From Micromonospora rosaria (GTDB lineage Bacteria; Actinomycetota; Actinomycetes; Mycobacteriales; Micromonosporaceae): a stretch of DNA of 64,000 bases. Under the pieces are notes generated by a model. The model was not told the origin of the DNA and made no database searches. It was given only the letters and a program-made list of their open reading frames with translations. Shown piece after piece: positions 21,902 to 38,026 of this stretch (position 1 is its first letter; each line of letters begins with the position of its first letter). Both the position numbers and the translations under genes were made by a program. The stretch is taken from the NCBI RefSeq assembly GCF_001567585.1, contig NZ_LRQV01000010.1, forward strand, positions 1 to 64,000, written 5' to 3'.

Positions 21902-23194
21902 TCAGGCCGACAGGGCCGGGGCCCGGGCCGGCTCGGCGACCGGGCGTCGGGCGACCCGCTGGGCGGCCGGCACCGGACTGGTCCGCCGGACCCAGAGCGG
22001 CCCGGCCAGGAGCAGCAGCAGGCCGGTCAGCGGGAACAGCGCCGCGATCACCTGTTCCCAGCCGGCCAGGGCCATCGGGGCCGGCGGTGACTCCTCGATG
22101 CCCAGCAGCGAGAAGACCCGCACCGAGAAGACCGTCACCAGCGCCGCCGTCGCCACGGCCAGACCGACGGAACGGGTCCGGTACGCCCGCACGGCCAGCC
22201 AGACCAGCAGGGGGATCACGTACACCCAGTGGTGTTCCCAGCTCACCGGCGAGACCAGCAGGCCGGTGACGGCGGCGGCCGAGAAGCCGAGGAAGTCCGA
22301 GCCGTGCCGGTGCACGTACCAGGCCACCGCGAGGCCGAACACCGCCAGCCCCGCCAGGACCACCAGCCACCAGGACGCGAACTGGGTGCTGTTGACCGCC
22401 CGGGACAGCGCTCCGGCGACCGACTGGTTCGGGGTGTCCCAGACCCCACCGGCCCGGGACGAGTGCAGCACGAGGCCACCCCAGTACCGGGCCGCGTCCG
22501 CCGGCAGCAGCACGAAGCCGGCGAGCACCGTACCGAGGAAGGCCGCGAGCGCGGTGCCGGCGGCCCGCCACTGCCGGGTCACCACCAGGTAGCCGATGAA
22601 AATCAGCGGGGTGACCTTGAGGCCGGCGGCGATGCCGATGCCCACCCCGCGCCACCGGCCTGCGTACCCCCGGAAGTCGAGCAGGACCAGTAGCAGCAGG
22701 AACATGTTGATCTGACCGGCGATGAGCTGGATCCGGACCGGGAGCAGCCAGGTGGCCGCCAGCAGCACGACCAGGGTCAGCGCGGCCCGGGTGCGCGGGG
22801 TGCGGACCCCGGCGACACCGAGCGCGAGCCAGGCGACCGCGCCCAGGGCGATCAGCGACGCGGTGTTCCACACCAGGCTCGCCGCGCCGATGGGCAGCAG
22901 GGAGAGCGGTACGAAGAACAGGATCGCGGTCAACGGCGGGTAGAGGTACGGCATCGGCCCGTACATCGGGTTCTGGATCGCGACGTCGTAGAGCGAGGTG
23001 CCGTCCCGGACGGCCTCGCCGCTGGCCAGGTAGACCTTGAGGTCCACGGTCCAGCGCAGCGCCCAGTACGGATCCCGGGTGAAGATCGCCTCGGCGAGCA
23101 CGGCCAACGCGAGGGCGGTCACCACCACCGCCGCCGCCGTGCCGAGGCCGAGGGCGCGGCTCGGGCGGATGCTCCGGAGGTCTGTCGTCTGCAT
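21902..23194 (-). CDS. GT87-family membrane glycosyltransferase (DUF2029)
   Basis: A 430-residue polytopic membrane protein with about ten hydrophobic segments. The first extracytoplasmic loop carries RWTVDLKVYLASGEAVRDG with the Asp typical of GT87 enzymes, then YPPLTAILFFVP. GT87 members such as PimE use polyprenyl-phosphate-mannose donors to glycosylate acceptors on the outer side of the membrane. It is the last gene of the operon and starts two bases after the preceding gene. Together with the GT2 gene two places upstream (a possible donor-lipid synthase), it suggests transfer of a sugar outside the cell. The acceptor is unknown. A role in C-nucleoside tailoring is inference from operon position. 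Confidence 0.8.
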   Translation of the reverse strand: MQTTDLRSIRPSRALGLGTAAAVVVTALALAVLAEAIFTRDPYWALRWTVDLKVYLASGEAVRDGTSLYDVAIQNPMYGPMPYLYPPLTAILFFVPLSLLPIGAASLVWNTASLIALGAVAWLALGVAGVRTPRTRAALTLVVLLAATWLLPVRIQLIAGQINMFLLLLVLLDFRGYAGRWRGVGIGIAAGLKVTPLIFIGYLVVTRQWRAAGTALAAFLGTVLAGFVLLPADAARYWGGLVLHSSRAGGVWDTPNQSVAGALSRAVNSTQFASWWLVVLAGLAVFGLAVAWYVHRHGSDFLGFSAAAVTGLLVSPVSWEHHWVYVIPLLVWLAVRAYRTRSVGLAVATAALVTVFSVRVFSLLGIEESPPAPMALAGWEQVIAALFPLTGLLLLLAGPLWVRRTSPVPAAQRVARRPVAEPARAPALSA

Positions 23195-23196
23195 GG

Positions 23197-24597
23197 TCAG
23201 CCCCTGTCGTAGGCGAGTGGTCGGCGGTGGGACGGGCCGGCGAGCGCCGGCGGGAGGGGGTGTGGACCGGCCAGCAGGTCGTCGTGCCCGGCCAGGCGGA
23301 GTCGGGCCCCGGTGATGCCGAGGCGGGCCAGCACGCCGACCGCGTCGACCTCGTCGCAGCCGTTGAGCAGGACGCTGACCTGCCCGTCCGCTGCCACGAC
23401 CTCGTCGGTGGGGCGCAGCGAGCCGGCCGGTACCGACCCGCCCTCGGGCAACCGCACCAGGGTGGCGATGTCGGAGCGGGCCGACCGGCGTCGGGCCAGG
23501 TCGGACCCGGCGACCCGGATCTCGTGCTCGACCACACCGGCGAGGAGCGCGGCGCTGCGTTCCCAGGTGAAACGGCCGGCCCAGGAGCGGCACGTCTCGG
23601 CGGCCCGGTCGGCAACCTCCTCGTCGCGCAGGTCGGTCAGGTACCCGGTCAGCGTGGCCGGAAGCTGGTCGCAGGACTCGGCGACCTGCCCGGTGCGACC
23701 GGCCCGGACGAAGTCGCGGGCACCCGATGTCGCCAGCACGACGCTCGGCACCCCGTACGCGGCGGCGGTGAGCAGCCGGGAGCCGCACCCCCCGCCGTCG
23801 GCGGTGGAGACGGTCAGCCAGGCGCGGCGCCACCACCGGTCCCGGTCGTCGTCGGTGGCCCGGCCGTGCAGGGTCACCGTGCCGGCCAGCCGCGCGTCCC
23901 CGGTGAGCCGGCGCAGCCGGTCCCGGTCGGGGCCGGTGCCGAGGATCTCGACGCGGAGGCCGGGCAGGGCGGCGGCGACGGCGGGCAGCGCCCCGAGCAG
24001 CAGGTCGACCCGTTCCTCGGCGACCAGGTCAACGTCGACCACGATGGTCGGGACGGCGGCCCGTTCCCCGCCGGCCCGGGTCGGGGCCGGTGTGCCGGGT
24101 GGCACGACGAAGATCGGGCCCTGGAGGCGGTGCCGGCGGCGCAGGTCGTGCCGGGCCGAGGGGGAGAGCGCCACCCGGGCGCGTTCGGTCCGGCTCCGCC
24201 GGCCGGCCAGGAACCGCCCCAGCCGGCCGGCGGGCTGCCGGGGAACCCGGTGCAGCACCTCGATCACCGGTACCGACCGGCCGGCGCCGCGCGGCAGGCC
24301 GTCGGTCGATCCGCCGGTGGCGTCCAGCACGACGTCGAACCGGCCACCGTCGCGGGCCAGCCGGGCGACGGTACCGAGCGGGCCGGCCCGGTACAGCCGG
24401 ATCCCGTCGAGGGTCTGCGCGGTGGGGGCGTCCGGCGCTCCGGGGGTCACCCAGGTGACCTCGGTGCCGGCCGCCACCCAGTGGCGGGTGATCTCGTACA
24501 GGTAGCGTTCCGCGTCGCCGGCGTGCGGGTGCCGGATGTCGTACCGGCTCATCACCAGCACCTGGCGGCCGGTCGGGGCCGGTCGGCGCGGGCTCAC
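23197..24597 (-). CDS. GT-B fold glycosyltransferase (GT4-like) with degenerate acceptor motif
   Basis: A 466-residue protein. It starts at a GTG overlapping the stop of the GT2 gene (GTGA); this keeps the first strand RQVLVMSRYDIRHP, which an ATG start at MSRYD would cut. The C-terminal half has the nucleotide-sugar fold (LLGALPAVAAALPGLRVEIL, TGPDRDRL, LHGRATDDDR). The usual EX7E motif of GT4 enzymes is replaced: in DGGGCGSRLLT both Glu positions are lost (Gly and Thr). About 75 extra residues follow at the C-terminus (TLVRLPEGGSV onward) with no recognised domain. It may use a different mechanism, or serve as a binding protein. Confidence 0.75.
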   Translation of the reverse strand: MSPRRPAPTGRQVLVMSRYDIRHPHAGDAERYLYEITRHWVAAGTEVTWVTPGAPDAPTAQTLDGIRLYRAGPLGTVARLARDGGRFDVVLDATGGSTDGLPRGAGRSVPVIEVLHRVPRQPAGRLGRFLAGRRSRTERARVALSPSARHDLRRRHRLQGPIFVVPPGTPAPTRAGGERAAVPTIVVDVDLVAEERVDLLLGALPAVAAALPGLRVEILGTGPDRDRLRRLTGDARLAGTVTLHGRATDDDRDRWWRRAWLTVSTADGGGCGSRLLTAAAYGVPSVVLATSGARDFVRAGRTGQVAESCDQLPATLTGYLTDLRDEEVADRAAETCRSWAGRFTWERSAALLAGVVEHEIRVAGSDLARRRSARSDIATLVRLPEGGSVPAGSLRPTDEVVAADGQVSVLLNGCDEVDAVGVLARLGITGARLRLAGHDDLLAGPHPLPPALAGPSHRRPLAYDRG

Positions 24598-25364
24598 CGG
24601 GCACCCGCCCGAGCGGTGTCGAACAGGTCGGCCCGGTAGAGGCGGAACAGGTCGGCGAAGGCCGCCTGGCCGTCGCGCACCGGGCGGAACGTGGACCGCT
24701 CGTCGTCGGTCCAGGTGACCGGGACCTCGGCGATCCGGCCGCCGGCCCGGTGGATCCGGCGCAGCAGTTCCACGTCGAACGCGAAGCCGCTGACCTGGCA
24801 GCGGCGCAGCGCCCACTGCACGGCCGACCGCTCGAAGATCTTGAACCCGCACTGGGTGTCGTGCACGCCGGGGACGAGTCGGCGGGCGATGGCCCGGAAC
24901 ACCGCGCCGCCGAGCCGGCGGGTGACCGGCTGGGGGCGGGCCAACGCGGCGCCGGGGGCGTGCCGGGACGCGATGGCCGCCACCGCGCCCGCCTCCAGCT
25001 CGGCCACCGCGCGGCTCAGGGTCGGTACCGGAGTGGACAGGTCGGCGTCGATGAATCCGACGTACCGGGCGGCGCTGCCGGCGATGCCCCGCCGGACCGC
25101 CGCGCCCTTGCCGGGTCGGGAGCAGCCGACCACGACCACCTCGGTGGCCCAGTCCCGGGCGGCCACGATGGTGGCGGTGTCGTCGGTGCTGCCGTTGTCG
25201 ACCACCACCACCCGGGACCGCCAGGGCTGGTCGGTCAGGAAGCCGGTCACCTCGGCGAGGGTGGCGGGCAGCCGGGCCGCCTCGTTGAACGCCGGGACGA
25301 CCAGTTCCAGGTCGACCTGGTCGCGGGGGGCCGGGTCGTGCCGGCCCCGGGGCAGCGGGCTCAT
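24594..25364 (-). CDS. GT2-family glycosyltransferase, polyprenyl-phosphate hexose synthase type
   Basis: A 256-residue soluble GT-A enzyme of the dolichyl-phosphate mannose/glucose synthase group: ELVVPAFNEAARLP, VVVVDNGSTDDTATI, the metal-binding GFIDADLSTP and HDTQCGFKIF. It lacks C-terminal membrane helices, like DPM1 and Ppm1-type catalytic domains. Reaction: transfer of mannose or glucose from a nucleotide sugar to polyprenyl phosphate. Its ATG overlaps the stop of the transglutaminase-like gene (TGATG), and its own stop overlaps the GT4-like start, so the three are tightly coupled. It probably supplies the lipid-linked donor for the GT87 protein. Confidence 0.85.
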   Translation of the reverse strand: MSPLPRGRHDPAPRDQVDLELVVPAFNEAARLPATLAEVTGFLTDQPWRSRVVVVDNGSTDDTATIVAARDWATEVVVVGCSRPGKGAAVRRGIAGSAARYVGFIDADLSTPVPTLSRAVAELEAGAVAAIASRHAPGAALARPQPVTRRLGGAVFRAIARRLVPGVHDTQCGFKIFERSAVQWALRRCQVSGFAFDVELLRRIHRAGGRIAEVPVTWTDDERSTFRPVRDGQAAFADLFRLYRADLFDTARAGAR

Positions 25365-26059
25365 CAGACACCTCCCGGGGTCGTCGCGTCGGCCACCAGG
25401 GAGCCCCGGGCCGTGGTGTGCTGGCTGGCGAAGAGCTTGGGGTGGTTGGTGCGGATGCCGCCCACCACCAGGTCGTACGGGACGTCGTCGAACTCGCCGT
25501 GCTCGTGGAGGAACTCCATGTGCCGGCGTCCCTCGTCGTCGAACGGGTGGTACATCGAGTCGGTCCGGCCGTCGAACTCCAGCGGCTTGATCCGGTAGAG
25601 CCGGCAGAGCATCTTGTTGAACACCGGCGTGGCCCGGACCCAGCGCCCGTCCAGCAGCACCGTGGTCAGGCTGTGGAAGGTGAACAGGTTGCCGCCCATC
25701 AGCTCCTCCAGCCGGGGCGAGGCGAGGTGGTTGCGGACGTCGCCGTAGTAGATCCGGCTGGGGACGCCCACCGCGCGCACCGCGGCGGCGTACACGATGG
25801 ACTTGTGCACGCAGAAGCCCATGCCCCGGGTGATCGTCGAGCTGGCCTTGAGGCCGTGGCGGGACAGGTCGGCCCCGTACACCTCGTAGTGGATGCCGTC
25901 GCGGACGGCGTAGTAGAGGGCGACGGCCCGTTCGGTCGGGGTCAGCTCCGCGCCGCCGTCGGGCAGCGTCCGGGCGACGAAGTCGCGGACGACGGCGGAG
26001 TCGTGGTCGAGGAACTCGGTGGGGTCGAGCAGGGTGGTGTCGACGAGTGGCGTGGACAT
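25364..26059 (-). CDS. Transglutaminase-like protein
   Basis: A 231-residue protein with a transglutaminase/papain-like core: the nucleophile region GMGFCVHKSIVYAAAVRAVG (Cys83) and the His region LFTFHSLTTVLLDGRWVRAT (His129). The third triad residue, usually Asp in a W..vDpt context, is not seen: the aligned stretch reads WVRATPVFN. Such proteins can be Cys proteases or acyltransferases; AdmF-type members form amide bonds in antibiotic assembly. Placed between the flavoprotein and the GT2 gene. In this cluster it could join an amino acid or peptide to the nucleoside, or trim a peptide, but no direct evidence fixes the role. Confidence 0.75.
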   Translation of the reverse strand: MSTPLVDTTLLDPTEFLDHDSAVVRDFVARTLPDGGAELTPTERAVALYYAVRDGIHYEVYGADLSRHGLKASSTITRGMGFCVHKSIVYAAAVRAVGVPSRIYYGDVRNHLASPRLEELMGGNLFTFHSLTTVLLDGRWVRATPVFNKMLCRLYRIKPLEFDGRTDSMYHPFDDEGRRHMEFLHEHGEFDDVPYDLVVGGIRTNHPKLFASQHTTARGSLVADATTPGGV

Positions 26060-26105
26060 CGTGCGGGTCCTCCAGGAAGGGATGTGATGCGCGGGGGCGG
26101 GGGTG

Positions 26106-27245
26106 TCAGAGGCCGAGCATGCGGGCGATGCGCTGACGCTGGACGTCCGAGGTGCCGGAGTAGATCGTTCCGGCGACGGCGTTGCGCAGGTCCTTCTCCA
26201 GGCCGTACTCGCTGGTGTAGCCGTAGCCGCCGAAGATCTGCACGGCGGCGAGCGCGGACGCGACGTTGTTCTCGCTGGTGACCAACTTGCTGGCGGCGAC
26301 GTCGAAGGTGACGTTCTCGCCGTTGGCGTGCCGTTGCGCGGTGTCGTAGAGCCACTTGCGGGAGGTCTCCACGGCGATGTGCATGTCGGCGAGCCGGTTC
26401 GACACCGACTGGAACGCGCCGATCCGCTGGCCGAACTGGGTGCGGGAGCGGGCGTACTCGACGGAGCGTTCGAGCCGGTGCTGCATCTCCCCGACGTTGA
26501 TCACGAAGGAGCAGAGGATCTCCCACTTCATGACGTGGTCCATGACCAGGAATCCGGCGCCGGGCGAGCCGACCACGTTGGTCGCCGGGACCCGGCAGTC
26601 GTCGAGGAACAGCTCCGAGAAGGGCGAGGTGCTCAGCCCCATCTTCGCCACCGGTGGCCCCACCACCAGGCCCGGTGTGTCCCGGTCGACCAGGAACGCG
26701 GTCAGGGCGGCCGGGCTGCCCCGCTTGCCGGTCAGCGCGTAGACCACGATCACGTCGGCGATCGGGCCGTTGGTGACGAAGGCCTTGCTGCCGTTGAGGA
26801 CGTAGTCGTCGCCGTCGCGGACGGCGGTGGTGCGCATCGCCATCACGTCGGAGCCGCCGGACGGCTCGGTGATCGCGTGCGCCCCGATGACCGACCCGTC
26901 GCTGACCCGGGTCAGGTAGCGGTCCTTGAGGTACGCCGAGCCGAAGCGTTGCAGGGGTACGCCGGTGCTCACCACGTGGGTGGAGACGGAGAAGCTGAAC
27001 CCGCCGTCGCGGCAGGCGTACCCGAGGCCCTCCAGCACGTACATGGTGGTGGGCAGGTCCTGGCCGAGCCCGCCCCACCGCTCGTCGAACGGCAGGCCCA
27101 GCAGGCCGGTCTCGCGGATCAGTTTCCATCCCGCGTGGCCGAACTCGCGGTCGGCGTCGCGGGTGAGGTGTCCCTCCCCGGCCGCCGCGCCCAGCTCCTC
27201 GGCTAGGGCGCGCAGCTCGCGCTGCTCCTCGGTCCAGTTGATCAT
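26106..27245 (-). CDS. Acyl-CoA-dehydrogenase-type flavoprotein, likely aminoacyl/pyrroline-S-carrier oxidase
   Basis: A 379-residue ACAD with the FAD-binding motifs ITEPSGGSD and AFVTNGPIADV and the signature RSRTQFGQRIGAFQ. The catalytic Glu of medium-chain enzymes is replaced by Ser363 (TIYSGTSDVQR). A Glu sits instead at residue 242 (MKWEILCSF), the place used by isovaleryl-CoA and prolyl-carrier dehydrogenases. Such enzymes oxidise the ring of prolyl-S-carrier proteins to pyrrole. With the neighbouring adenylating enzyme and carrier protein this points to dehydrogenation of a five-ring aminoacyl thioester. The ATG overlaps the previous stop (ATGA). Confidence 0.88.
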   Translation of the reverse strand: MINWTEEQRELRALAEELGAAAGEGHLTRDADREFGHAGWKLIRETGLLGLPFDERWGGLGQDLPTTMYVLEGLGYACRDGGFSFSVSTHVVSTGVPLQRFGSAYLKDRYLTRVSDGSVIGAHAITEPSGGSDVMAMRTTAVRDGDDYVLNGSKAFVTNGPIADVIVVYALTGKRGSPAALTAFLVDRDTPGLVVGPPVAKMGLSTSPFSELFLDDCRVPATNVVGSPGAGFLVMDHVMKWEILCSFVINVGEMQHRLERSVEYARSRTQFGQRIGAFQSVSNRLADMHIAVETSRKWLYDTAQRHANGENVTFDVAASKLVTSENNVASALAAVQIFGGYGYTSEYGLEKDLRNAVAGTIYSGTSDVQRQRIARMLGL

Positions 27246-28702
27246 GATGTCGGTCCTCCTCCGGTGGATCCGGCCAGCGCCGGGTGCCGGCGCTCGCGCA
27301 GGACGGTGCGGTCGACCTTGCCGGTGGACGTCCGGGGCAACGCCTCGTCGAGTACCTCGAACGCGCGGGGAATCGCGGTACGGGGCAGCGCGGCGGCACA
27401 GTGCAGCCGCAGATGCAGCCCGTTGAGTTCGGAGGCCACCGTCCGGCGGACCACCGCGTGCAGGACGGTGCCGGCGTCCGGGTCGGGGACGGCGAGCACG
27501 GCGGCCTCGCGTACCTCGGGGTGGGCGAGCAGCACCTGCTCCACCTCCTGCAGGTTCGTCCGGACGCCGCGCACCTTGACCTGGTGGTCGTTGCGACCGG
27601 TGAGGTGGAACAGGCCGTCGGCGTCGCGCCGGACCAGGTCGCCGGTGCGGAACCAGCCGTCCCGCCAGTGCTGGCCGTCGAGCCGGGCGTCCAGGTAGCC
27701 CCGGGCCCGGAACGGCGTCCGGACCACCAGCTCCCCGCTGCCCGCGCCGGTCAGCTCCGCGTCGTCGGCGTCCACCACGCAGACCTCGACGCCGGTGATG
27801 GGGCGGCCGATCGGCAGGCCGTTCCGGGTCGACGCGTCGGCCGGGTCGATCCGGTGGAGGAAGCTGTCGTTGGTCTCGGTGCAGCCGTAGACGTTCCACA
27901 GCCGGGCGTTCGGGAACGCCTCGACGATCCGGTCCAGCAGGGGCGGTGGCACCACGTCCCCGGTGAGCAGCACCTCCCGGACGCCGGGGAACCGGCCGCC
28001 GGCCTCGGTGACCAGCCGGAAGAACAGCGGGACCGCCTGCACCACGGTCGGTTGCCGGTCCTGGCAGAACGCCGTCAGCCAGGCGCCCTCGGCAGCCCGT
28101 TCCGGGTCGACCAGGTCGACGCGGGCCCCGCTGGCGAGCGCGGCCCAGACGTCCAGCAGGCACAGGTCGAAGTTGAGCGGCGCGTAGTTGAGCACCCGGG
28201 CGGCGGCCCCGATACCGAAGGTGCCGGCCGCCCAGGTGAGGAACGCGTCCACCCCCTCGGCGGCCAGGTCGACGACCTTCGGCGTACCGGTCGAGCCGGA
28301 GGTGGTGAGCAGCAGGCCGGGGCCGGGCAGCGGGCGGCCCGGGGCCCCGCTGGTGCGGACGGTCAGGCCGGTGGCGGTGGCCCGCAGGATGTGGGGGGCA
28401 CCGACCTGGGCGCAGAGCCGGGTGAGCGCCTCCGCTCCCAGGGACGCCGAGGGCAGCAGCACCCGACGGTCCGCCTCGAACGCGGCGATCAGCAGCGCGA
28501 TGGTCTCCGGGGACTTCGCCGCCGGGACGCAGAGCGGGTGTGCCGGGGCGAACGCGAGGGCGGCCAGCGCCTCCCGCGCGTCCTGGACCCGGTGGGCCAG
28601 GTCCCGGTAGCTGATCTCGCGGCCGGCCCAGGACAGCGCCGGGGCGTCCGGTGTGCGGCGGACCTGTTCGGTGAAGGCGGTGCAGAACGATCTGGTAGGC
28701 AC
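27242..28702 (-). CDS. Stand-alone amino-acid adenylating enzyme (A domain)
   Basis: A 486-residue ANL-superfamily ligase without a carrier domain. Core motifs: A3 TTSGSTGTPKVV, the A4/A5 region YAPLNFDLCLLDVWAAL and YGCTETNDS, A7 GWFRTGDL, A8 GRNDHQVKVRG and A10 STGKVDR with the catalytic Lys. The Asp of NFD is kept, in line with binding an alpha-amino group. It starts at GTG, six bases after AGGAGA. It should load an amino acid onto the 83-residue carrier protein of the same operon. In showdomycin biosynthesis the amino acid is L-glutamine; that specificity is inferred from pathway similarity, not read from the pocket. Confidence 0.88.
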   Translation of the reverse strand: MPTRSFCTAFTEQVRRTPDAPALSWAGREISYRDLAHRVQDAREALAALAFAPAHPLCVPAAKSPETIALLIAAFEADRRVLLPSASLGAEALTRLCAQVGAPHILRATATGLTVRTSGAPGRPLPGPGLLLTTSGSTGTPKVVDLAAEGVDAFLTWAAGTFGIGAAARVLNYAPLNFDLCLLDVWAALASGARVDLVDPERAAEGAWLTAFCQDRQPTVVQAVPLFFRLVTEAGGRFPGVREVLLTGDVVPPPLLDRIVEAFPNARLWNVYGCTETNDSFLHRIDPADASTRNGLPIGRPITGVEVCVVDADDAELTGAGSGELVVRTPFRARGYLDARLDGQHWRDGWFRTGDLVRRDADGLFHLTGRNDHQVKVRGVRTNLQEVEQVLLAHPEVREAAVLAVPDPDAGTVLHAVVRRTVASELNGLHLRLHCAAALPRTAIPRAFEVLDEALPRTSTGKVDRTVLRERRHPALAGSTGGGPTS

Positions 28703-28778: not shown

Positions 28779-29567
28779 TCAGGCGTGGGCGTCGACCAGG
28801 CGACCGCCGCCCGGCACGGCCGGTTCGAGACCGGCGATGGTGAACAGCCGGCGCAGGCAGGCCTGGTTGGAGGTGACCACCGGGACGCCGAGGGTCTCCT
28901 CCAGCCGGGCCACCGCGTCCCAGGAGCGGAACCCGCTGCCGGGGATCAGCACCCCGTCGGCCTCCGCCGGGAAGTGGGCACCGACCTGCCGGCAGACCTC
29001 GTCCGGGTCGATCATCCAGCGGCCACCCCGGTCGAAGATCCGGTGCCGGGCCACCCCGTCCCAGTCGTCGTCGAGCCGGTAGTGCAGCAGTCCGGCCACC
29101 TCGAACCCGCCCGCCGCCAGGTACCGCCGGGTGGCGGCGAAGGTCGGCTCGGTGAACCACGGCGGTACCAGCACCAGCGGGCGGCGGACGGCCAGCTCGG
29201 CCAGTCCGGCCCGGATCGCCTCCCCGGCGGTGTAGACCGGGGTGCCTCCGGCCAGGTCGGTCGCGGCGGCGGCGAAGCCGGCGTCGAACTCGGGGCCACC
29301 GAAGAAGCTCGCCGAGGCGAAGCAGAGGCAGATCGCGGTCAGGTCCATCTGACCGAGCTGCACCAGTCCCCGCCGGACGTCCGGCTGGGCGATCAGGCGC
29401 TGCCAGGTCTCCTCGGTGTACTCGGCGCCGGTGCTGGTCGGGCTCTCGAACCGGGCGGCGTGCACGGTGACCCCGGTGGGGGCCCGGCCCCACAGTTCCG
29501 CCTCCACCACCGGGTCGTTGTGCACCACCAGCACGCCGAGCTGGGCGACCCAGGCCGGGGCCCTCAC
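28779..29567 (-). CDS. Maleate isomerase / Asp-Glu racemase superfamily protein
   Basis: A 262-residue protein of the maleate isomerase, arylmalonate decarboxylase and Asp/Glu racemase fold. The first active-site Cys fits ICLCFASASFFGG. The place of the second Cys (SACVQMP in maleate isomerase) reads LIPGSGFRSW, without Cys. The later VPVVTSNQACLRRLF is in the usual SNQA context. It starts at GTG overlapping the stop of the MFS gene (GTGA). Because showdomycin is a maleimide that can open to a maleamate, this protein may isomerise or bind such compounds, as a tailoring or self-protection step. That role is inference. Confidence 0.75.
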   Translation of the reverse strand: MRAPAWVAQLGVLVVHNDPVVEAELWGRAPTGVTVHAARFESPTSTGAEYTEETWQRLIAQPDVRRGLVQLGQMDLTAICLCFASASFFGGPEFDAGFAAAATDLAGGTPVYTAGEAIRAGLAELAVRRPLVLVPPWFTEPTFAATRRYLAAGGFEVAGLLHYRLDDDWDGVARHRIFDRGGRWMIDPDEVCRQVGAHFPAEADGVLIPGSGFRSWDAVARLEETLGVPVVTSNQACLRRLFTIAGLEPAVPGGGRLVDAHA

Positions 29568-31139: not shown

Positions 31140-31835
31140 TCACCTCTGGCTGAGGTCGAGGGTCACGGAACGGGGAGCGGGGCTGAGCAGGAGCGCCGGG
31201 CCGAGCGTGGCCGGGCCGGTGAAGACCGCGCCGGCACCGGCCAGCAGGAGTTCGATCCGGCTGGCCACCCCGGTGGTGACGCCGAACGCGGTCATCCCGG
31301 CGGCGTTGGCCATCCGGACGTCGTCCACCGCGTCGCCGACGACGATGCAGCGCGCGGGTGGCACCCCGAGCGCGTCGGCGGCCAGCAGCGCCAGGTCGGC
31401 GTGCGGCTTGCCGCGTTCGGTCATGCCGTGGCAGGCGAGGGTGTCGAAGGCGTCGAGCAGCCCGGTGGCGGCCAACAGTTCGACGGCGCTGGGTCGTACC
31501 TTGCTGGTGACCACCCCGAGCGGGTGGCCACGGTCCCGCAGGGTGGCGAGCAGTTCGGCCACGCCGGGGAAGACCAGCCGGGCGGCGGTCGGGATGACCG
31601 TCTCGGTGAACAGTTCCCGGGCCCGGTTCGCGGCCCGCGCCACCTCGGGGTGGTCGGCGGGCACCGCGAGGAGGGTGGCGAACGAGGCGGCCAGGGACCG
31701 GCCGACGGTACGACGGAGTTGCTCGTCGGTGGCGGTGCGGCCGTGCTCGGTGACGACCGCGCGCAGGACGGTGGTCATCCCGCCCGGGGTGTCGACCAGG
31801 GTGCCGTCGACGTCGAAGAGGATCGCGGTGGTCAC
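31140..31835 (-). CDS. HAD-family phosphatase
   Basis: A 231-residue HAD hydrolase of the phosphoglycolate-phosphatase group: motif I ILFDVDGTLVD, motif II VVTSK, motif III Lys in GKPHADL, and motif IV IVVGDAVDDVRMA. An N-terminal helical cap lies between motifs I and II. It starts at GTG overlapping the PsuG stop (GTGA), a tight coupling. PsuG-type synthases make a 5'-phosphorylated C-nucleoside, so the natural role here is to remove that phosphate to give the free C-nucleoside. Confidence 0.88.
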   Translation of the reverse strand: MTTAILFDVDGTLVDTPGGMTTVLRAVVTEHGRTATDEQLRRTVGRSLAASFATLLAVPADHPEVARAANRARELFTETVIPTAARLVFPGVAELLATLRDRGHPLGVVTSKVRPSAVELLAATGLLDAFDTLACHGMTERGKPHADLALLAADALGVPPARCIVVGDAVDDVRMANAAGMTAFGVTTGVASRIELLLAGAGAVFTGPATLGPALLLSPAPRSVTLDLSQR

Positions 31836-32746
31836 GACCGCTCCCGCAACGCGACGGCGACCTCGGCGGCGACGGCGCTGGTGGACAGCAGCACGGACCG
31901 GTTCGCGGCGGCGGTACGGCCCTGGGTCGCCGCCGAGACCCGGCTCAGGATGTACGGGGTCATCGCCGGCCCCTGCACCCCGGTCGCCTCCGCCTCGGCC
32001 TGGACCTCGCGGACCAGCGCGTAGACCTCGTCGGCGGGCAGCGCGTCCAGCTCGTCGATCGGGTGGGTGACGAGGAACCCGCCGTCGTTGCCGACCGCCC
32101 AGTGCAGGCGGATCGCGTCGACCAGTTCGGTCAGGTCGTCGATGCGGCGCGGGTTGCGGACGCCGCTGGAGACGCTGTAGTACGCCGGGAAGTCGTCGCA
32201 CCGGTAGCCGACGACCGGCACCCCGAGGGTCTCCAGGTACTCCATGGTCAGCGCCGGGTTCAGCAGCGACTTCGCGCCGGCGCAGACGACGGCGATCCGG
32301 TGCCGGGTGAACTCCACCAGGTCCGCCGAGATGTCGAAGCTGCGCTCGGCGCCGAAGTGCACGCCGCCGATGCCGGCCACCGCGAAGACGTCGATGCCGA
32401 CCTGCGCGGCGGCGATCAGGGCGGCCGAGACGGTGGTGCCGCCGTGGCCGCCGCCGGCCAGCGTCGGGCCGATGTCGCGGGTGCTGACCTTCGGCACGTC
32501 CGGGGTGGTGGCGAAGAGCGCCACCTGCTCCTCGGACATGCCGACGACGAACCGGCCGTCGACGATGCCGGTCCGGGCGGGTACCGCGCCGCCGGCCCGG
32601 ATGGTCTTGTCGATGTCCAGCGCGGTGTCCAGGTTGAGCGGGTAGCTCAGGCCGTGGACCACGCCCGAGGATTCCAGGGCCACCACGGGCCGCCGGTCGG
32701 CCAGCGCGTCGGCGACCTCCTCGGAGAGCGAGAAGTACTCGTTCAT
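31832..32746 (-). CDS. PsuG-family C-nucleoside synthase (SdmA-like)
   Basis: A 304-residue pseudouridine-5'-phosphate glycosidase family enzyme. All key residues are present: Glu25 in VALESSGVVHG, Lys86 in PKVSTRDI, His130 in GGVHFGAE, Lys159 in CAGAKSLLN, and the FDISADL metal region. They match E. coli PsuG Glu31, Lys93, His137 and Lys166 with constant offset. PsuG cuts pseudouridine phosphate reversibly. Homologues in showdomycin (SdmA), formycin, pyrazofurin and minimycin/indigoidine loci form C-glycosidic bonds with ribose 5-phosphate. No psuK kinase is nearby, which argues against pseudouridine breakdown, and the pyrrole-forming genes around it argue for C-nucleoside synthesis. Confidence 0.92.
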   Translation of the reverse strand: MNEYFSLSEEVADALADRRPVVALESSGVVHGLSYPLNLDTALDIDKTIRAGGAVPARTGIVDGRFVVGMSEEQVALFATTPDVPKVSTRDIGPTLAGGGHGGTTVSAALIAAAQVGIDVFAVAGIGGVHFGAERSFDISADLVEFTRHRIAVVCAGAKSLLNPALTMEYLETLGVPVVGYRCDDFPAYYSVSSGVRNPRRIDDLTELVDAIRLHWAVGNDGGFLVTHPIDELDALPADEVYALVREVQAEAEATGVQGPAMTPYILSRVSAATQGRTAAANRSVLLSTSAVAAEVAVALRERS

Positions 32747-32817
32747 CGGTGCTCCTTCGTGTGGGGGTGGGTGGGGCCGGGGCGGCGCGGGCGGGCTCCG
32801 CCCGCGCCGTGGCCGCG

Positions 32818-33189
32818 TCAGTACTCGGAGAACCCGTTGGCGTCGAAGTTGTGCCGCTCGTCGCCGCGCAGCGGCGGGTTGAACACGCTGATCAGCTCCA
32901 TGTCCTGCTCCGGATCGGCGATCAGGAAGTGCTCGTCGTGCTGGTCGAGGGCGTAGAGGATGCCGGGCTCGATCTCGTGGGTGACGCCGTCGGCGATCAC
33001 CCGGCCCCGGCCGGAGATGCAGTAGCAGGCCTCGAGGTGGTTGCGGTACTGCAGGGGGGACTTGGAGCCGGCCGCGACGACGGTGTGGGCGACGGCGAAG
33101 CCCATCTTGTCCTGCTCGACGAGGAGCCGGAAGCTGGTGCCGTTGCCCCAGTCGACGGCCGGAACCTCGGACCTGGTCTTGACGATCAT
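32818..33189 (-). CDS. Ectoine-synthase (EctC) homologue, probable ring-closing enzyme
   Basis: A 123-residue cupin closely resembling ectoine synthase: NHLEACYCISGRGRV with the iron-ligand Glu, ILYALDQHDEHFL with the Tyr and His ligands, and VFNPPLRGDERH near the end. No ectA or ectB is present, so it is not part of ectoine synthesis. Ectoine synthase can cyclise glutamine to 5-amino-3,4-dihydro-2H-pyrrole-2-carboxylate, the ring of the showdomycin pathway. Here it probably cyclises a glutaminyl group, likely while it is bound to the carrier protein. It lies between the carrier-protein and PsuG genes. An AGAAGGGC site precedes the ATG. Confidence 0.9.
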   Translation of the reverse strand: MIVKTRSEVPAVDWGNGTSFRLLVEQDKMGFAVAHTVVAAGSKSPLQYRNHLEACYCISGRGRVIADGVTHEIEPGILYALDQHDEHFLIADPEQDMELISVFNPPLRGDERHNFDANGFSEY

Positions 33190-33287
33190 GATGGTTGCCC
33201 TTCTGTCGCTGGCGGCTGGTGACGGAGGTGTGCGCTGCCGCGCACGAGGACGGGGACGTACCGGTGGTGGTCGTGCGGGGTGGCGGC

Positions 33288-33539
33288 TCAGACGAGGCTG
33301 CGGGCGTCCTCGACGAAGGCGGCGATCGAGGCCACCGAGCTGAACTGCAGGGGCGAGATGTCCTGGTCCTCGATCGGGATGTGGTAGCGGTCGCCGACCC
33401 AGGCGATCAGGCGCAGCAGCCCGAGGCTGTCGACGATCCCGGTGTCCAGCAGGTCCAGGTCTGCCGGGAGCTGGTCGACGGGGATGTCGGGGGCGAACGC
33501 GGTGACGACGAACTGCCGGATCTCGGCTTCGTGGGACAT
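33288..33539 (-). CDS. Stand-alone peptidyl/acyl carrier protein
   Basis: An 83-residue four-helix carrier protein. The phosphopantetheine site is the Ser in TGIVDSLGLLRLIAW (about residue 38); the third and fourth helices carry HIPIEDQDISPLQFSSVASI. AAGGAG lies five bases before the ATG. It resembles discrete prolyl-carrier proteins such as PltL that work with a free adenylating enzyme and an ACAD. It should hold the amino acid during ring closure and oxidation. It has no attached domains. Confidence 0.9.
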   Translation of the reverse strand: MSHEAEIRQFVVTAFAPDIPVDQLPADLDLLDTGIVDSLGLLRLIAWVGDRYHIPIEDQDISPLQFSSVASIAAFVEDARSLV

Positions 33540-33662
33540 CGGGGCTCCTTGTCGCCGGGCCGCCGGCGGGTGCCGGACGGCGGTGTCGAGGGGGCTCACC
33601 GGGGTGGGTGAGGGGTGCTGCTGCCCTGCGCGGTGGCGGGGCGGTCCGAGGGGCGCCGCTGG

Positions 33663-34499
33663 TCAGCGCGGTGCCGGGAGGGCGCTGCTCAACAGCTCGA
33701 CGAGGAGCACCTGCTCCGGATCGGTACGCCCGGCCCGCTCGCCGAGCACCACCTGACGCAGGTCGCCGACCAGGCGGTAGCGCGGTTGGGGGTGGCTCCG
33801 GGCGTACGCCGGTCGGGCCAGGCCGTGCGCGGCGGCCGGCTCGACCAGGGAGAGGTCGTCGACGAACACCGTGTTGACCTGGGCGGCCAGGGCCGGTGGC
33901 AGGTCGCGGCCGGAGGCGTTGACCAGGAGCGCGCCCCTGGCCAGGTGCAGTGGCGGCGCCGGGCGCTGCTCCCCGCCGGTCGACTCGGTCGGCCCGATGA
34001 CGACCACGAGGTTCGCCCCGAAGGCGGACTCCGCCGGCGTGGCGGCCCGGGTCAGGGTGATGCCGGCGAGGTCGAGCTCGTCGACCGTCCCCGGGTCGAG
34101 GAACGGCCCGGCCGGGGCGGTCGGCTCGGCAGCCGCCGGCTGCGGTGCCGCCGCGCCGTCGGTGAGGAAGACCGACACGAGGCTCACCCAGGAGACGTAC
34201 CGGGCGAAGATCAGGGTGTGTAGCTGGACGGCGCGGCGGGGGCCGATGACCGAGGCCGTGACCACCTCCGGGCCGAGCAGGTGGCGGGCGGCCAGGGCGG
34301 CCAGGATCGCGGCGTGGCGGATCGCCTGGTCCGCCCGGTGCGGGCCGGCCGGCGGGGGGCACCCGAGCCGGTCCCAGATGTCGACCGACAGGGGGGACGT
34401 CCCGCCGGTCATCAGCCGTTCGGCCAGCAGGTCGACCGGGTCCACCGGGTCGCCGTCCGGGAGCGGATCGGCACATGAGCGGGGAATGAGGCTGTCCAT
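33663..34499 (-). CDS. Ornithine cyclodeaminase / mu-crystallin family protein
   Basis: A 278-residue protein and the first gene of the operon, with GGAGGG before its ATG. Family marks: SVIGPRRAVQLHTLIF in place of the usual GtGvQA nucleotide loop, GANLVVVIG, ALLVNASGRDLP, TVFVDDLSLVE, and GERAGRTDPEQVLLVELL near the end. The N-terminal substrate-binding part is short and the Rossmann glycines are partly altered, so NAD binding is uncertain. Relatives make proline, dehydroalanine or imines, or reduce them. It might act on a cyclic imine or supply an unusual amino acid. The role is open. Confidence 0.7.
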   Translation of the reverse strand: MDSLIPRSCADPLPDGDPVDPVDLLAERLMTGGTSPLSVDIWDRLGCPPPAGPHRADQAIRHAAILAALAARHLLGPEVVTASVIGPRRAVQLHTLIFARYVSWVSLVSVFLTDGAAAPQPAAAEPTAPAGPFLDPGTVDELDLAGITLTRAATPAESAFGANLVVVIGPTESTGGEQRPAPPLHLARGALLVNASGRDLPPALAAQVNTVFVDDLSLVEPAAAHGLARPAYARSHPQPRYRLVGDLRQVVLGERAGRTDPEQVLLVELLSSALPAPR

Positions 34500-34560
34500 C
34501 GGACGGTCCCTCCGGTGGTCGTGTCGGCTGCTGCGATCCACACGGTGGGCGCGGTTCCTA

Positions 34561-34617
34561 TCGGGCCGCCTTCGAAGGGCTATCGACGTCGACCGGATCT
34601 CGAACAACGATCGGAGG
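34561..34617. promoter_or_regulatory. Candidate SARP binding site (11-bp-spaced TCGA/TCGG repeats)
   Basis: TCGGGCC (34561), TCGAAGG (34572) and TCGACGT (34583) stand exactly 11 bp apart. A second set, TCGACCG (34589), TCGAACA (34600) and TCGGAGG (34611), is again 11 bp apart. SARPs bind direct repeats of TCGAGxx-type heptamers at 11-bp spacing. The site is in the divergent region between the biosynthetic operon and the DTHW peptide gene. Confidence 0.65.
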
Positions 34618-34691
34618 CCGGCTCGATAGCGGCCGACGGTCTGGTGATGGCACACCGCCACGGCGGGAACCACGCCCCGAAGGGAACGAAG

Positions 34692-34886
34692 ATGTCCGTC
34701 ACCCGCACGTTCGTCACCACCGTCACGTCTGTCCTCGCCACCGCCGCGCTCGCCGCGATCCTCGGCATCGGCGCCGCCGTCGGCGGCGGGGCGGGAGCGG
34801 ACAGCTCGCTGGCGACCGAGGTCTGCCCCAAGGACACGCACTGGAGCGTGGAGCTGGGGGTGTGCGTGGCGGACACCCACTGGTGA
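34692..34886 (+). CDS. Small secreted peptide with two Cys-x2-DTHW units
   Basis: A 64-residue protein with an AAGGGA site before the ATG. It has a signal peptide (basic TRTF, hydrophobic TSVLATAALAAILGIGAAVGG, likely cut near AGADSS). The mature peptide is about 28 residues and contains VCPKDTHW and VCVADTHW, two near-identical units of Cys, x, x, Asp-Thr-His-Trp, the last at the very C-terminus. The two Cys could form one disulphide. No family is recognised. It is read divergently from the biosynthetic operon across the likely SARP site. It might be a secreted signal, a binding peptide, or a substrate for the transglutaminase-like protein; all are guesses. Confidence 0.75.
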   Translation: MSVTRTFVTTVTSVLATAALAAILGIGAAVGGGAGADSSLATEVCPKDTHWSVELGVCVADTHW

Positions 34887-34892
34887 TCTGAC

Positions 34893-34942
34893 CCGACGTG
34901 GTCGAGGGGCAGCCCGGGCGGGCTGCCCCTCGACCACGTCGG
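34893..34942. terminator. 23-bp perfect hairpin, bidirectional terminator
   Basis: The arms 34893-34915 and 34920-34942 pair without mismatch around a 4-base loop. The hairpin stands between the DTHW peptide gene and the convergent SARP gene. Confidence 0.8.
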
Positions 34943-34984
34943 TGGGCCGGCCACCGGGGGCGGTGGCGTCGGAGGTCGGGGCGG

Positions 34985-37900
34985 CTACGCCGGAAGGGGG
35001 ATCTGCCGGGTCAGGCCGGGGGCGGCGCCGTCGTCGGGAGGGTCGTCGGAGAGCAGGGCCGCCTCGGCCAGCAGCGAGCAGGCCCGCTCGTGCCAGACCG
35101 TGGAGCCGAGCTGCTCGAACAGCTCGCGGGCGGCGCGCAGGTGCGCCACCCCGGCGGTCAGCCGGCCGGTGGCGAGGGCGATCTCGCCGAGGGAGTACCG
35201 GGCGCGGGCCTCGACCAGCCGCTCGCCGAGCTGGCGGGCCCGTTCCAGGGTGTGTGTGAGGATCATCGTCGCGTTGTCCGGCCGGCCCTCCCGGTGCCGG
35301 AGCAGGCCCAGGCCGTACAGGGCGTGGGTCTCGCCGATCCGGTCCCCGGTGTCCCGCACGATGCGCAGCACCCGGTGCAGGGCCTGCCGGGCCAGCTCGA
35401 TCTGGTCGGTGGCCAGGTAGACCTCGGCGAACCGGTGCGTCACCTGCGCCTCGACGCGCAGGCAACCGGTCTCCCGGCAGATGGTCAGGGCCTGGTCGAG
35501 CAGGTCGATCGCGCCCCGGTGGTCGCCGTCGTCCATCCGGTGCTGGGCGAGGCTGCGCATGATGTGCGCCTCGCCGATCCGGTCGCCGGCCCGGCGCATG
35601 ATCTCCAGGGAGCGCGCGTACTTGGCCAGCATCGACGCGGTGTCACCGCGCAGCCGGTCGATGTGCGCGGCGTTGCGCAGCACCAGCCCGCCGCCGTACT
35701 CCACGCCCTCGGCGGTGAAGATCTCCAGCGCCGTGCCGAAGCAGGCGTCCGCGTCGGCGAGCCGGGTCTGGAACATGTGCAGCGTCCCCATGGAGTACCG
35801 CATCGCCGCCATCCCGACCCGGTTGCCGGCCCGCTCGGCGGCGCCGTACGCGGTGGTGGTGCACTCCCGCCAGTCGTCGAAGTACCCCTTGGACTCGAAG
35901 AGGCTGACCGAGGTCAGGGCCAGGTCCCAGCAGAGCTCCGCCAGGCCGGCGTCGGCGGACTGCCGGACGGCGACGATCAGCGCCCGCCGTTCCGTCTCCC
36001 ACCAGTGCGCCGGGTCACCGAGGTACGCGACGGCGTCGGCATGGTCCATGATCCAGCGGGGGGCGGTGCCGTGCAGGGTGGTGTAGTTGCCGCCGTAGGT
36101 GCTGCGGTGCGCCTCCTCCGCCAGGGCCAGCCAGCCGCTGAGCACCCGGCTCAGCGCCGCCGTACGCTCCTCGTCGGTCTCCGTCTCGGCCAGCTTCTCG
36201 GCCGCGTACACCCGGATCAGGTCGTGCAGCCGGTAGCGCGGGGCGGCGTCCGGGTACTGCACGGTGTCGACGAACTGGGCGTCGACGAGACCCTCCAGGA
36301 TGTCCTCGGCCTCGAAGGTGCTGCTGTCCAGCAGGGCGGCGGCGGTCCAGCTCGGGAAGTCGGGGGCCCGCATCATCGAGCAGAGCCGCAGCAGCCGTTG
36401 CGCGGCAGCGCCGAGGCCCCGGTACGCCAGCTCCATGTTGGAGCGCAGTTCGAGGCCGTGGTGGACGAACTCGTCCAGCCGCTTCGCCTCATCCCGGAGG
36501 CGGTGCACCAGCCCGCCCAGTCGCCAGTGCGGGCGGGAGGCCAGCCGGGCGCCGGTGATGCGCAGCGCCAGCGGCAGTCCGCCGCAGAGGGTGGCCAGCT
36601 CGGCGGCGTCGTCGCGGCTGGCGGCGACGCGGTCCGGGCCGACCAGCGCGGTCAGCATCTCCAGGGACTGCGCGAGGTCGAAGAGTTCGAGGTCGACCAG
36701 GCGTGCGCCGGGCAGGCCGGTGAGGCGTACCCGGCTGGTGATGATCACCGCGCAGGACGAGCTGCCGGGCAGCAGCGGCAGGAGCTGGATGTCGGGCGGG
36801 ACGTCGTCGAGGACGAGGAGCAGCCGTTTGCCGAAGAGCATGCTGCGGTACAGCTCGCCGCGTTCCTCCATGCCGTCGGGGATGGCCGAGCCGGTGATGC
36901 CGAGGGCGCGCAGGAACCGGGCGAGCAGCTTCGCGGTGTGGTCCTGCCGGTCCCAGGAGCGCAGGTCGGCGTAGAGCTGGCCGTCGGGGTACTGGTCGCT
37001 GAGTTCGTGGGCGGCGCGGATGGCGAGGCTGGACTTGCCGACCCCGGCCATGCCGGAGATGACCACGATCGGCATGCCGTGGCCCGTCACCTGGTCGCCG
37101 TCGGAGTCCCGGGCGAGCAGCCGGCAGATCCGGTCGAGCTGCCGCTCCCGGCCGACGAAGTCGGTGATGCTGGCGGGAAGCTGGCGGGGCAGCACCACCA
37201 TCGGGCCGCCGCGTGGTGGCGGGGGTGTCCACTTCGGGGTCGGTGGGGGTACGACGGCCGGCGGTCGTTCGTCGGTGGTCCCGAGCGCCGGGTCGCGTTG
37301 CAGGATGGCCCGTTCCAGGCGTTGCAGTTCCTCGCTCGGGTCCAGCCCGAGTTCGTCGGCGAAGACCGTGCGGGCGTGGCGGGCGGCCTTGAGTGCGTCG
37401 GCCTGGCGTCCGCACCGGTAGAGCGCGAGCATGAGGAAGGTGTGCAGCCGCTCGCGGAGGGGGTGCTCCCCGACGAGGCCCTGCAACTCGCTGACCGTCT
37501 CCTGGTGGGCGCCGAGTTCGAGGTCGAGCTGGATGCGCTCCTCGACGGCGGCGAGTCGCTGCTCCGCCAGCACGGTGGCGGCCCGCTGGACCTGGTCGCT
37601 GGCCACCCCGGAGAGCGGGTCGCCCCGCCACAGGGCGAGGGCGGTCCGCAGGGTCCGGGCCGCGTCGGCCTTGGTGCCCGCGTCGACCTGCCGGCGGGCC
37701 TCGGCGACCAGCGCGGCGAAGTGGAGGCTGTCCACGTCGGTGGTGTCCAGTTGGAGGAGGTACCCCGGCGGGCGGGTGCTGATCGCCTGTGGTCGCCCGA
37801 CGTCCTCGAAGAGCCGACGCAGCGCGGAGATGCAGATCTGGATCTGGCTTCGGGCGGTGGTGGGTGGGTCGTTACCCCACACCGCGTCGATGAGTTGACC

Positions 37901-38026
37901 CACGGGGACGACCCGGTTGATGTTGAGACCCAATACCGCCAGGACGATCCGCTGGCGGGCTCCACCCAGGTTCAGCGACCGGTCACCATTGATCAGTTCC
38001 ACCGGCCCGAGTAGTCGCAGACCCAT
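34985..38026 (-). CDS. Large SARP/AfsR-type regulator with NB-ARC and TPR domains
   Basis: A 1013-residue regulator. The N-terminal winged helix (GLRLLGPVELINGDRSLNLG) and BTAD domain (to about residue 245) form the SARP part. They are followed by a Pro-rich linker, an NB-ARC ATPase with Walker A GMAGVGKSSLA near residue 325 and LLLVLDDVPPD as Walker B, then TPR repeats over the last 300 residues. AfsR-type SARPs switch on antibiotic clusters, often in response to nucleotide state or ligands. The ATG at 38026 is preceded by GGGGGAGAGA; an earlier in-frame ATG at 38068 lacks support. It is on the same strand as the biosynthetic operon but is separated from it by the DTHW gene and a terminator. 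Likely the pathway activator. Confidence 0.93.
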   Translation of the reverse strand: MGLRLLGPVELINGDRSLNLGGARQRIVLAVLGLNINRVVPVGQLIDAVWGNDPPTTARSQIQICISALRRLFEDVGRPQAISTRPPGYLLQLDTTDVDSLHFAALVAEARRQVDAGTKADAARTLRTALALWRGDPLSGVASDQVQRAATVLAEQRLAAVEERIQLDLELGAHQETVSELQGLVGEHPLRERLHTFLMLALYRCGRQADALKAARHARTVFADELGLDPSEELQRLERAILQRDPALGTTDERPPAVVPPPTPKWTPPPPRGGPMVVLPRQLPASITDFVGRERQLDRICRLLARDSDGDQVTGHGMPIVVISGMAGVGKSSLAIRAAHELSDQYPDGQLYADLRSWDRQDHTAKLLARFLRALGITGSAIPDGMEERGELYRSMLFGKRLLLVLDDVPPDIQLLPLLPGSSSCAVIITSRVRLTGLPGARLVDLELFDLAQSLEMLTALVGPDRVAASRDDAAELATLCGGLPLALRITGARLASRPHWRLGGLVHRLRDEAKRLDEFVHHGLELRSNMELAYRGLGAAAQRLLRLCSMMRAPDFPSWTAAALLDSSTFEAEDILEGLVDAQFVDTVQYPDAAPRYRLHDLIRVYAAEKLAETETDEERTAALSRVLSGWLALAEEAHRSTYGGNYTTLHGTAPRWIMDHADAVAYLGDPAHWWETERRALIVAVRQSADAGLAELCWDLALTSVSLFESKGYFDDWRECTTTAYGAAERAGNRVGMAAMRYSMGTLHMFQTRLADADACFGTALEIFTAEGVEYGGGLVLRNAAHIDRLRGDTASMLAKYARSLEIMRRAGDRIGEAHIMRSLAQHRMDDGDHRGAIDLLDQALTICRETGCLRVEAQVTHRFAEVYLATDQIELARQALHRVLRIVRDTGDRIGETHALYGLGLLRHREGRPDNATMILTHTLERARQLGERLVEARARYSLGEIALATGRLTAGVAHLRAARELFEQLGSTVWHERACSLLAEAALLSDDPPDDGAAPGLTRQIPLPA

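Follow-up and report, generated by a model that had tools for sequence, protein, structure and literature searches.

Which natural product is specified by the operon found in a 64,000-nucleotide stretch of Micromonospora rosaria DNA (contig NZ_LRQV01000010.1, positions 1 to 64,000; hereafter the window), for which an earlier note had proposed a showdomycin-type C-nucleoside? Gene calling together with Pfam and NCBIfam scans of the called genes yielded 13 minus-strand genes running from 34499 down to 21902. Their intergenic spacing of −4 to +123 nt makes a single operon plausible; the genes were called with a codon-score script, and start positions may be off. Our best explanation as a whole is that the operon likely makes an aminopyrrole C-nucleoside, which would next be exported and, once outside, mannosylated. 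This route, in which each reaction is read from observed gene content, conserved gene order, residue conservation and co-occurrence, becomes more doubtful in the order product of the module, release step, decarboxylation, sugar.

The probable C-nucleoside core of the operon

For comparison a set of 89 loci was used, after three second copies had been dropped. Eighty of them were found with the EctC-like gene as query and nine with the gene for the AMDase-fold protein; that a query gene occurs in the set it retrieved is therefore no proof. Genus and family labels of the compared genomes are inferred. PsuG is encoded in 16 loci other than the window locus, nine found with the EctC query and seven with the AMDase-fold query. 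All 16 share nine genes with the operon, namely those for a stand-alone adenylation (A) domain, a carrier protein (PCP), an EctC-like cyclase, an ACAD-type dehydrogenase, a transglutaminase-fold (TGase) protein, PsuG, a HAD phosphatase, an MFS exporter and the AMDase-fold protein. A gene-presence tally scores L050 and L051 as 8/9, since the PCP is fused there to an ornithine-cyclodeaminase-like (OCD-like) gene. This fusion occurs in 3/16 loci, two from Catellatospora and one (L134) from Actinosynnema; the shared open reading frames (ORFs) are L001:5148-6350 and L051:4733-5938 in Catellatospora and L134:10140-11051 in Actinosynnema.

The genes psuG-HAD-MFS-AMDase are contiguous in all 16 loci, with the MFS gene always between the HAD and AMDase-fold genes. 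As a reciprocal control, the AMDase-fold gene was present in 9/9 PsuG loci found with EctC, and EctC in 7/7 found with the AMDase-fold query. Since the TGase gene occurs in 16/16 of these loci and the AMDase-fold gene in 9/9 of those found with EctC, which is the fair count for it, both belong to the normal set. Their status as window-specific extras, as which the earlier note had listed the maleate-isomerase-like and transglutaminase-like proteins, was rejected, as both are present in all 16 other PsuG loci. Judged from gene content, the real additions to the core are the OCD-like protein, an AfsR-type regulator, a small secreted peptide with a DTHW motif and three glycosyltransferases (GT2, GT4 and GT87).

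The PsuG-family C-nucleoside synthase (31832-32746; Pfam PF04227, 332 bits) is SdmA-like and was aligned to 4gij and 4gim. Its K159 aligns with the Lys that reads Ala in 4gim and is invariant in 17 rows, as are E25, D142 and N282, which we take to be the Glu, Asp and Asn residues of the active site. It overlaps the gene of the SdmB-like HAD phosphatase (31140-31835; Pfam HAD_2, FDVDGT motif), which is followed by the DHA2-like MFS exporter (29564-31132; Pfam MFS_1). The window locus thus unites a PsuG-like synthase, a HAD phosphatase, a free A domain, a free PCP and an EctC-like cyclase, the set that marks the showdomycin type. All the genes named in the earlier note (PsuG, HAD, EctC-like, A, PCP, ACAD, AMDase-fold, OCD-like, TGase-fold and three GTs) were recovered; the single operon it had described stands with 13 genes, among them the MFS exporter missing from its list, while the secreted peptide it had counted in lies outside. 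A second psuG in the genome (G000 contig C41:13609-14502) is 42% identical to the cluster copy and is probably a housekeeping gene, because a PsuG match was found in 52/61 genomes, its own included.

The 13 operon genes occur in identical order in 6/12 other loci of the window type. Four of the 12 differ only by the OCD-PCP fusion or by two small inserted genes, and of the remaining two one has no GT4 gene and the other none of the three GT genes. Such conservation of gene order is far beyond chance. In Micromonosporaceae a match to the AMDase-fold protein at E ≤1e-20 was found in 10/354 genomes, the window's included, eight with the window layout and two with another layout. Among 7997 candidates scored, this protein had 114 relatives at E ≤1e-3, 94 of them in a tight group of at least 40% identity; a sample of 394 genomes from the class gave no other long match above 35% identity. 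Among the papers listed by a literature search, with most subscription journals outside its reach, none dealt with a cluster of the window type, with its mannosylation or with the family of the module described below.

According to the predicted route, the EctC-like cyclase would convert L-glutamine to the amidine 5-amino-3,4-dihydro-2H-pyrrole-2-carboxylate (ADPC), which the free A domain would load onto the free PCP. The ACAD would aromatise PCP-bound ADPC to an aminopyrrole thioester, and the TGase-fold enzyme would release the aminopyrrole from its carrier. PsuG would then couple a nucleophilic ring carbon of the aminopyrrole to C1 of ribose 5-phosphate, the HAD phosphatase would strip the phosphate from the C-nucleoside, the cysteine-free AMDase-fold enzyme would remove the carboxylate and the MFS protein would export the product. 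Outside the cell, the PimE-like GT87 would transfer a hexose from the polyprenyl-phosphate hexose made by GT2, and GT4 may add a further sugar. If true, the sugar-capped product would be a new kind of C-nucleoside.

Predicted decarboxylation, sugar transfer and end product

The AMDase-fold protein (28779-29567; Pfam Amdase) carries neither of the two cysteines of its superfamily. In 48/48 rows (the window, 27 of the AMDase type and 20 of a distant paralogue, Amd2) these are replaced by Phe or Trp and by Gly, while Cys is present at both sites in 14/14 outgroup rows. The window protein shows Cys-to-Phe and Cys-to-Gly exchanges plus a PPWF insertion, which is common to the AMDase type and Amd2. 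The residue immediately preceding the first site is a conserved Cys in the AMDase type; in Amd2 this Cys is not generally retained. AMDase uses the catalytic Cys188 and racemases use two cysteines (PMC4996985; papers are cited by PMC number, and statements drawn from them refer to excerpts of their text). As both cysteines are gone, maleate isomerase or racemase chemistry is unlikely, and the label maleate-isomerase-like is not supported as a description of the reaction. Maleate isomerase, racemase and AMDase activity by the usual cysteine mechanism were accordingly rejected as candidates.

We predict that the protein decarboxylates the C-substituted aminopyrrole. A possible, if less probable, alternative is that it provides self-resistance together with the adjacent exporter, by opening or tautomerising the reactive base. 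Indeed, its gene adjoins the MFS exporter gene in 16/16 PsuG loci and, as judged by eye, a transporter-like gene in most of the loci with a TrpB-like enzyme that possess it, and the loss of the catalytic cysteines would also agree with such a function. Against this, Amd2, with the same two Cys losses and the PPWF insertion, occurs in 20 loci, of which 19 lack PsuG; this suggests a step directed at the ring.

The three GT genes form the 3′ end of the operon. GT2 (24594-25364; Pfam GT2) is a predicted polyprenyl-phosphate-hexose synthase with distant matches to GpgS and dolichol-phosphate mannose synthase, all NCBIfam models scoring below cut-off. It is followed by GT4 (23197-24561; Pfam) and by GT87 (21902-23194; Pfam GT87, 157 bits), a PimE-like membrane enzyme and predicted mannosyltransferase. 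GT87 matches PimE (9dm5) at 1.7e-30 and reaches 202 bits with the NCBIfam equivalog PRK13375, below the cut-off of 413. Its D51, Y55, the Lys of GLKVTP and the WEHH motif align to D58, Y62, K195 and W319/H321/H322 of PimE, so that all six catalytic or donor-side residues are identical. Because these residues are kept, GT87 is predicted to add a hexose on the outer side of the membrane with a polyprenyl-phosphate sugar as donor, which gives a more definite form to the suggestion of the earlier note that the product is possibly glycosylated. The transferred sugar is predicted to be mannose and could be another hexose.

For the Ram29 system, antibiotic mannosylation outside the membrane that depends on polyprenyl-phosphomannose has been proposed, with a two-part system of a polyprenyl-phosphomannose synthase and a membrane mannosyltransferase for such antibiotics (PMC4635501). 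The operon resembles Ram29, Dbv20 and MppH-I in that a membrane GT-C enzyme is predicted to transfer mannose from polyprenyl-phosphomannose to an antibiotic after its export (PMC4635501). It differs in having a PimE-type GT87 with its own GT2 and in the predicted acceptor, a nucleoside instead of a peptide. The locus points to a predicted route by which a nucleoside could receive a hexose extracellularly.

The usual product of PimE is an envelope glycolipid (PMC12041525), and all three GT genes are absent from the Actinosynnema locus, as would be expected if they served a cell-envelope glycan and were mere neighbours of the operon. This is unlikely in view of the gaps of −1 to +32 nt at the operon 3′ end and of the retention of GT2 and GT87-type genes at this place, following the TGase gene, in 11/12 other window-type loci from several genera. 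GT4 is present in 10/12 of these loci, and L084 has a different GT order.

The published showdomycin cluster comprises 16 genes over 12.2 kb (PMC8724604). L091 contains the nine genes and seven others, in total 16 over 12,239 bp, and we infer that it represents the showdomycin layout, an assignment by gene number and span only. Its seven further genes encode a DsbA-like and a deaminase-like protein, two SMR proteins, a MarR-like protein, Amd2 as second AMDase-fold protein and DUF6253 (MarR and SMR were named by eye). A trpF gene reported close to the showdomycin cluster (PMC13055916) is not accounted for by L091, and Streptomyces showdoensis was not among the matches listed in three protein searches, two of which gave the best 120. 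The gene-by-gene comparison with showdomycin that the earlier note had called for was run against L091: the operon has nine of the 16 genes, at 35-59% identity, and lacks counterparts of the deaminase-like, DsbA-like, two SMR, MarR, second AMDase-fold and DUF6253 genes. It has in addition the OCD-like protein, the AfsR-type regulator, GT2, GT4, GT87 and the secreted peptide. The showdomycin-type core which the note had claimed is nevertheless borne out, as PsuG, HAD, A, PCP, EctC-like and ACAD proteins carry the expected residues and the same genes are found in L091.

The joined cores of 79 loci were placed in a quick tree, which has several long branches. In it the 13 window-type loci group with L138 (support 100), apart from the Streptomyces PsuG cores L089 and L099, which fall together with L091 and two Amd2 loci (support 100). 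PsuG loci thus stand at two places of the tree, so either the pairing of PsuG with the module arose repeatedly or the cassette has moved.

Could the end product then be showdomycin itself? An aminopyrrole C-nucleoside would have to be oxidised to the maleimide by air, the GTs serving another purpose or a transient self-protection. The nine genes common with the showdomycin-like L091, the last steps to showdomycin, which are non-enzymatic according to a review (PMC8724604), and deaminase relatives elsewhere in the genome (43% identity over 98 residues) would all be in keeping with this. A tblastn search of the window with the deaminase-like, DsbA-like, one SMR, DUF6253 and second AMDase-fold proteins, the MarR protein and the other SMR protein not being searched, matched only the operon's own AMDase-fold gene, and GT2 and GT87-type genes follow the TGase gene in 11/12 other window-type loci. 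Showdomycin as the end product therefore appears quite improbable. Because seven of the 16 L091 genes are without operon counterpart, it is less likely than the mannosylated aminopyrrole C-nucleoside that we predict.

Among other known systems, AlnA (4ex8) is also matched by the window PsuG. The alnumycin aglycone is a polyketide, unlike what would be built by the split A/PCP/EctC/ACAD set of the window. Minimycin (oxazinomycin) and alnumycin share with the operon a PsuG-type C-C bond formed together with a HAD phosphatase, but the minimycin base comes from one large non-ribosomal peptide synthetase, MinA, instead of split enzymes (PMC8724604). The same review, from 2022, covers six natural C-nucleoside antibiotics. 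Automated annotation has tagged showdomycin-like clusters in Lentzea nigeriaca (PMC9120177) and Streptomyces californicus (PMC10293955), so a family resemblance to showdomycin clusters is already in print. Both species have a relative of the window TGase among the best 120 matches listed. The antiSMASH entry for S. californicus, "showdomycin 47%" (PMC10293955), would be consistent with a locus that lacks PsuG, for example L094.

The proposed aminopyrrole module in the operon and elsewhere

The base-forming enzymes are encoded at 32818-33189 (EctC-like cyclase; Pfam Ectoine_synth), 33288-33539 (stand-alone PCP with the serine of DSLGL; Pfam PP-binding, alignment), 27242-28702 (A domain; Pfam AMP-binding), 26106-27245 (ACAD) and 25364-26059 (TGase/arylamine N-acetyltransferase fold). 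With residue numbers and ligand roles of ectoine synthase taken from PMC6344544, the iron ligands Glu57, Tyr84 and His92 and six of the seven other ligand residues are kept in 89/89 EctC-like rows. Asn38, which contacts the substrate carboxylate, is replaced in all 89 (Ala 32, Cys 26, Thr 31). As a side reaction, the H. elongata enzyme can form ADPC by cyclising glutamine (PMC6344544). The window assembly contains one EctC and no EctA above the cut-off (a single match of 26 bits versus 121), which agrees with the earlier description of an ectoine-synthase homologue without ectA; EctB was not searched for. An ectoine pathway was rejected on account of the lone EctC, the missing EctA and the changed Asn38.

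The A-domain signature was read at positions 278, 301, 330, 331 and 517 only, in PheA numbering that was assigned by hand from the motifs. Q278, T301, D330 and K517 are the same in 83/83 rows and S331 in 82, counting three loci twice (L001/L050, L002/L084, L003/L135). As the signature is constant across all the coupling types described below, it is very likely that the module loads the same substrate in every setting. The best solved match of the ACAD is the prolyl-ACP dehydrogenase 4irn (2.4e-91), and a Glu at what we presume to be the catalytic base position is found in 85/85 rows. The enzyme resembles prolyl-carrier dehydrogenase systems of the PigA/RedW type, in which a free A domain, PCP and ACAD likewise aromatise a five-ring amino acid thioester. 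The window differs from these by the EctC-like cyclase and by missing the NCBIfam equivalog cut-offs (PigA 381 bits versus 500, RedW 345 versus 650). Activation of L-proline by the A domain, with pyrrole-2-carboxyl-PCP formed by the ACAD and a base without amino group as the outcome, is very improbable. In its favour, prolyl-carrier dehydrogenases are the nearest ACAD relatives, and the nearest solved A domains include a proline-carrier ligase. Against it, the EctC variant occurs in 9/9 loci found with the AMDase-fold query, so that the use of EctC as query does not by itself explain its presence, and plain pyrrole would be a poorer nucleophile for PsuG.

Cys83 and His129 of the TGase-fold protein are present in 68/68 rows; by eye, Thr seems to occupy the Asp place of the triad. 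Its structural model (pLDDT 92.9) matches a putative cysteine protease, transglutaminases, arylamine N-acetyltransferases and the amide synthase GdmF. The last three act via an acyl-cysteine, and we take AdmF to be a parallel. The enzyme is predicted to release or transfer the carrier-bound acyl group. With the TGase-fold and AMDase-fold enzymes named, the late steps of showdomycin-type pathways, release and decarboxylation, become testable.

Five of the 89 loci have no EctC-ACAD core. The other 84 comprise 16 with PsuG, 23 with a TrpB-like enzyme (18 without and five with a TrpD/C/F set), 23 with TrpD-, TrpA/C- and TrpF-like genes without TrpB (28 including the five with TrpB), 19 with Amd2 and without PsuG, and three with none of the coupling types; 67/84 have the TGase gene. 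From this co-occurrence A-PCP-EctC-ACAD(-TGase) emerges as a portable aminopyrrole module. For the C-nucleoside clusters the comparison yields a conserved gene set, spread over several genera, with a defined core that is now separable from tailoring genes. The special EctC clade was found in 40/392 genomes of the genus Streptomyces (E ≤1e-38), ordinary EctC coming next near 40% identity, and an EctC match at E ≤1e-30 in 49/297 genomes of the Pseudonocardiaceae-type family.

Examples of the module beside a TrpB-like PALP enzyme are L052:7468-8847, L053:7326-8678 and L085:12129-18586. The last of these, with ATP-grasp ligases and a B12-dependent MutE-like pair, suggests dipeptides of a new aromatic amino acid. 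TrpD-, TrpA/C- and TrpF-like genes accompany the module in L092:7306-12320, L156, L157, L161, L165 and L166, with a TrpB-like gene in the last five; these loci look as if tryptophan synthesis had been copied on an aminopyrrole that replaces anthranilate. In L145, L151, L158, L160 and similar loci the module stands with DsbA-like, deaminase-like, two SMR and Amd2 genes and with no coupling enzyme nearby. In sister clusters with TrpB-like or TrpD/C/F-like genes the same base would go onto amino acids or into bicycles. We consider the chances about even that the module, acting as a biological C-nucleophile, underlies an undescribed family of actinobacterial pathways with interchangeable C-C coupling enzymes. 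In the branch represented by the operon, the C-nucleoside would be decarboxylated by a racemase-fold enzyme devoid of the cysteines, exported, and mannosylated extracellularly by a PimE-like enzyme; these would be the first mannosylated aminopyrrole C-nucleosides. In such a family PsuG would lead to C-nucleosides, TrpB-like enzymes to aminopyrrolyl-alanines and the TrpD/TrpC/TrpF mimics to fused bicycles.

Several points weigh against the proposed mannosylated aminopyrrole C-nucleoside. The substrate assignment of the A domain depends on the hand-mapped pocket, and 17 core loci, all of the TrpD/C/F kind, have no TGase gene. With the AMDase cysteine lost, decarboxylation would need a new acid, and the position of the gene beside the exporter fits self-protection equally well. 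In GT87 the PimE acceptor-side residues D160 and Y161 are replaced, which makes the acceptor a prediction only, and we know of no relative of the GT2/GT4/GT87 trio that acts on a nucleoside. Finally, the Actinosynnema locus L134 is without all three GTs and the S. radiopugnans locus without GT4; the GTs are therefore not essential to the window type.

Regulatory region and neighbouring genes

The first gene of the operon (33663-34499) encodes the OCD-like protein, tentatively assigned by profile and fold, with a shortened N-terminal part and no match in Pfam or NCBIfam. It is present in 12/12 other window-type loci, in L134 recognised by motif within one ORF with the PCP, and is a predicted partner of the carrier protein.

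Upstream, two genes lie outside the operon. The AfsR-type SARP regulator (34985-38026, minus strand; Pfam BTAD, NB-ARC and TPR, NCBIfam AfsR model below cut-off) forms a separate unit and has a homologue of at least 55% identity in 12/12 other window-type loci. Between it and the operon, and divergent from the latter, a plus-strand gene (34692-34886) is translated to a small secreted peptide of 64 amino acids with an internal CPKDTHWS and a C-terminal DTHW, ending CPKDTHWSVELGVCVADTHW. A DTHW peptide occurs at the same place in 12/12 other loci, always beside the AfsR-type regulator; in the 13 window-type loci the internal C..DTHWS is found in 12 and the C-terminal DTHW in eight. The cluster may use it as a signal peptide.

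In the divergent promoter region between peptide gene and operon a direct repeat, TATCG-17-TATCG with a 22-bp period (34559-34585, plus strand), is a candidate SARP operator. It is the one match in the window, and chance gives one in 37/100 shuffles. As a single match is that common, the case for an operator rests on the conserved place of the repeat, which was found at the same intergenic site in 8/8 Micromonosporaceae-type loci; in 12 other loci scanned no exact match was present.

Downstream of GT87 a LacI-type regulator and a small ORF are encoded on the plus strand (20349-21776), the LacI gene being kept at ≥80% identity in 6/12 other window-type loci. Further away the window contains a rifamycin-inactivating phosphotransferase (14032-16644, minus strand; NCBIfam NF041857, 1582 bits versus a cut-off of 999) and a 3073-amino-acid ORF (1233-10454, plus strand) that appears RHS-like by eye.

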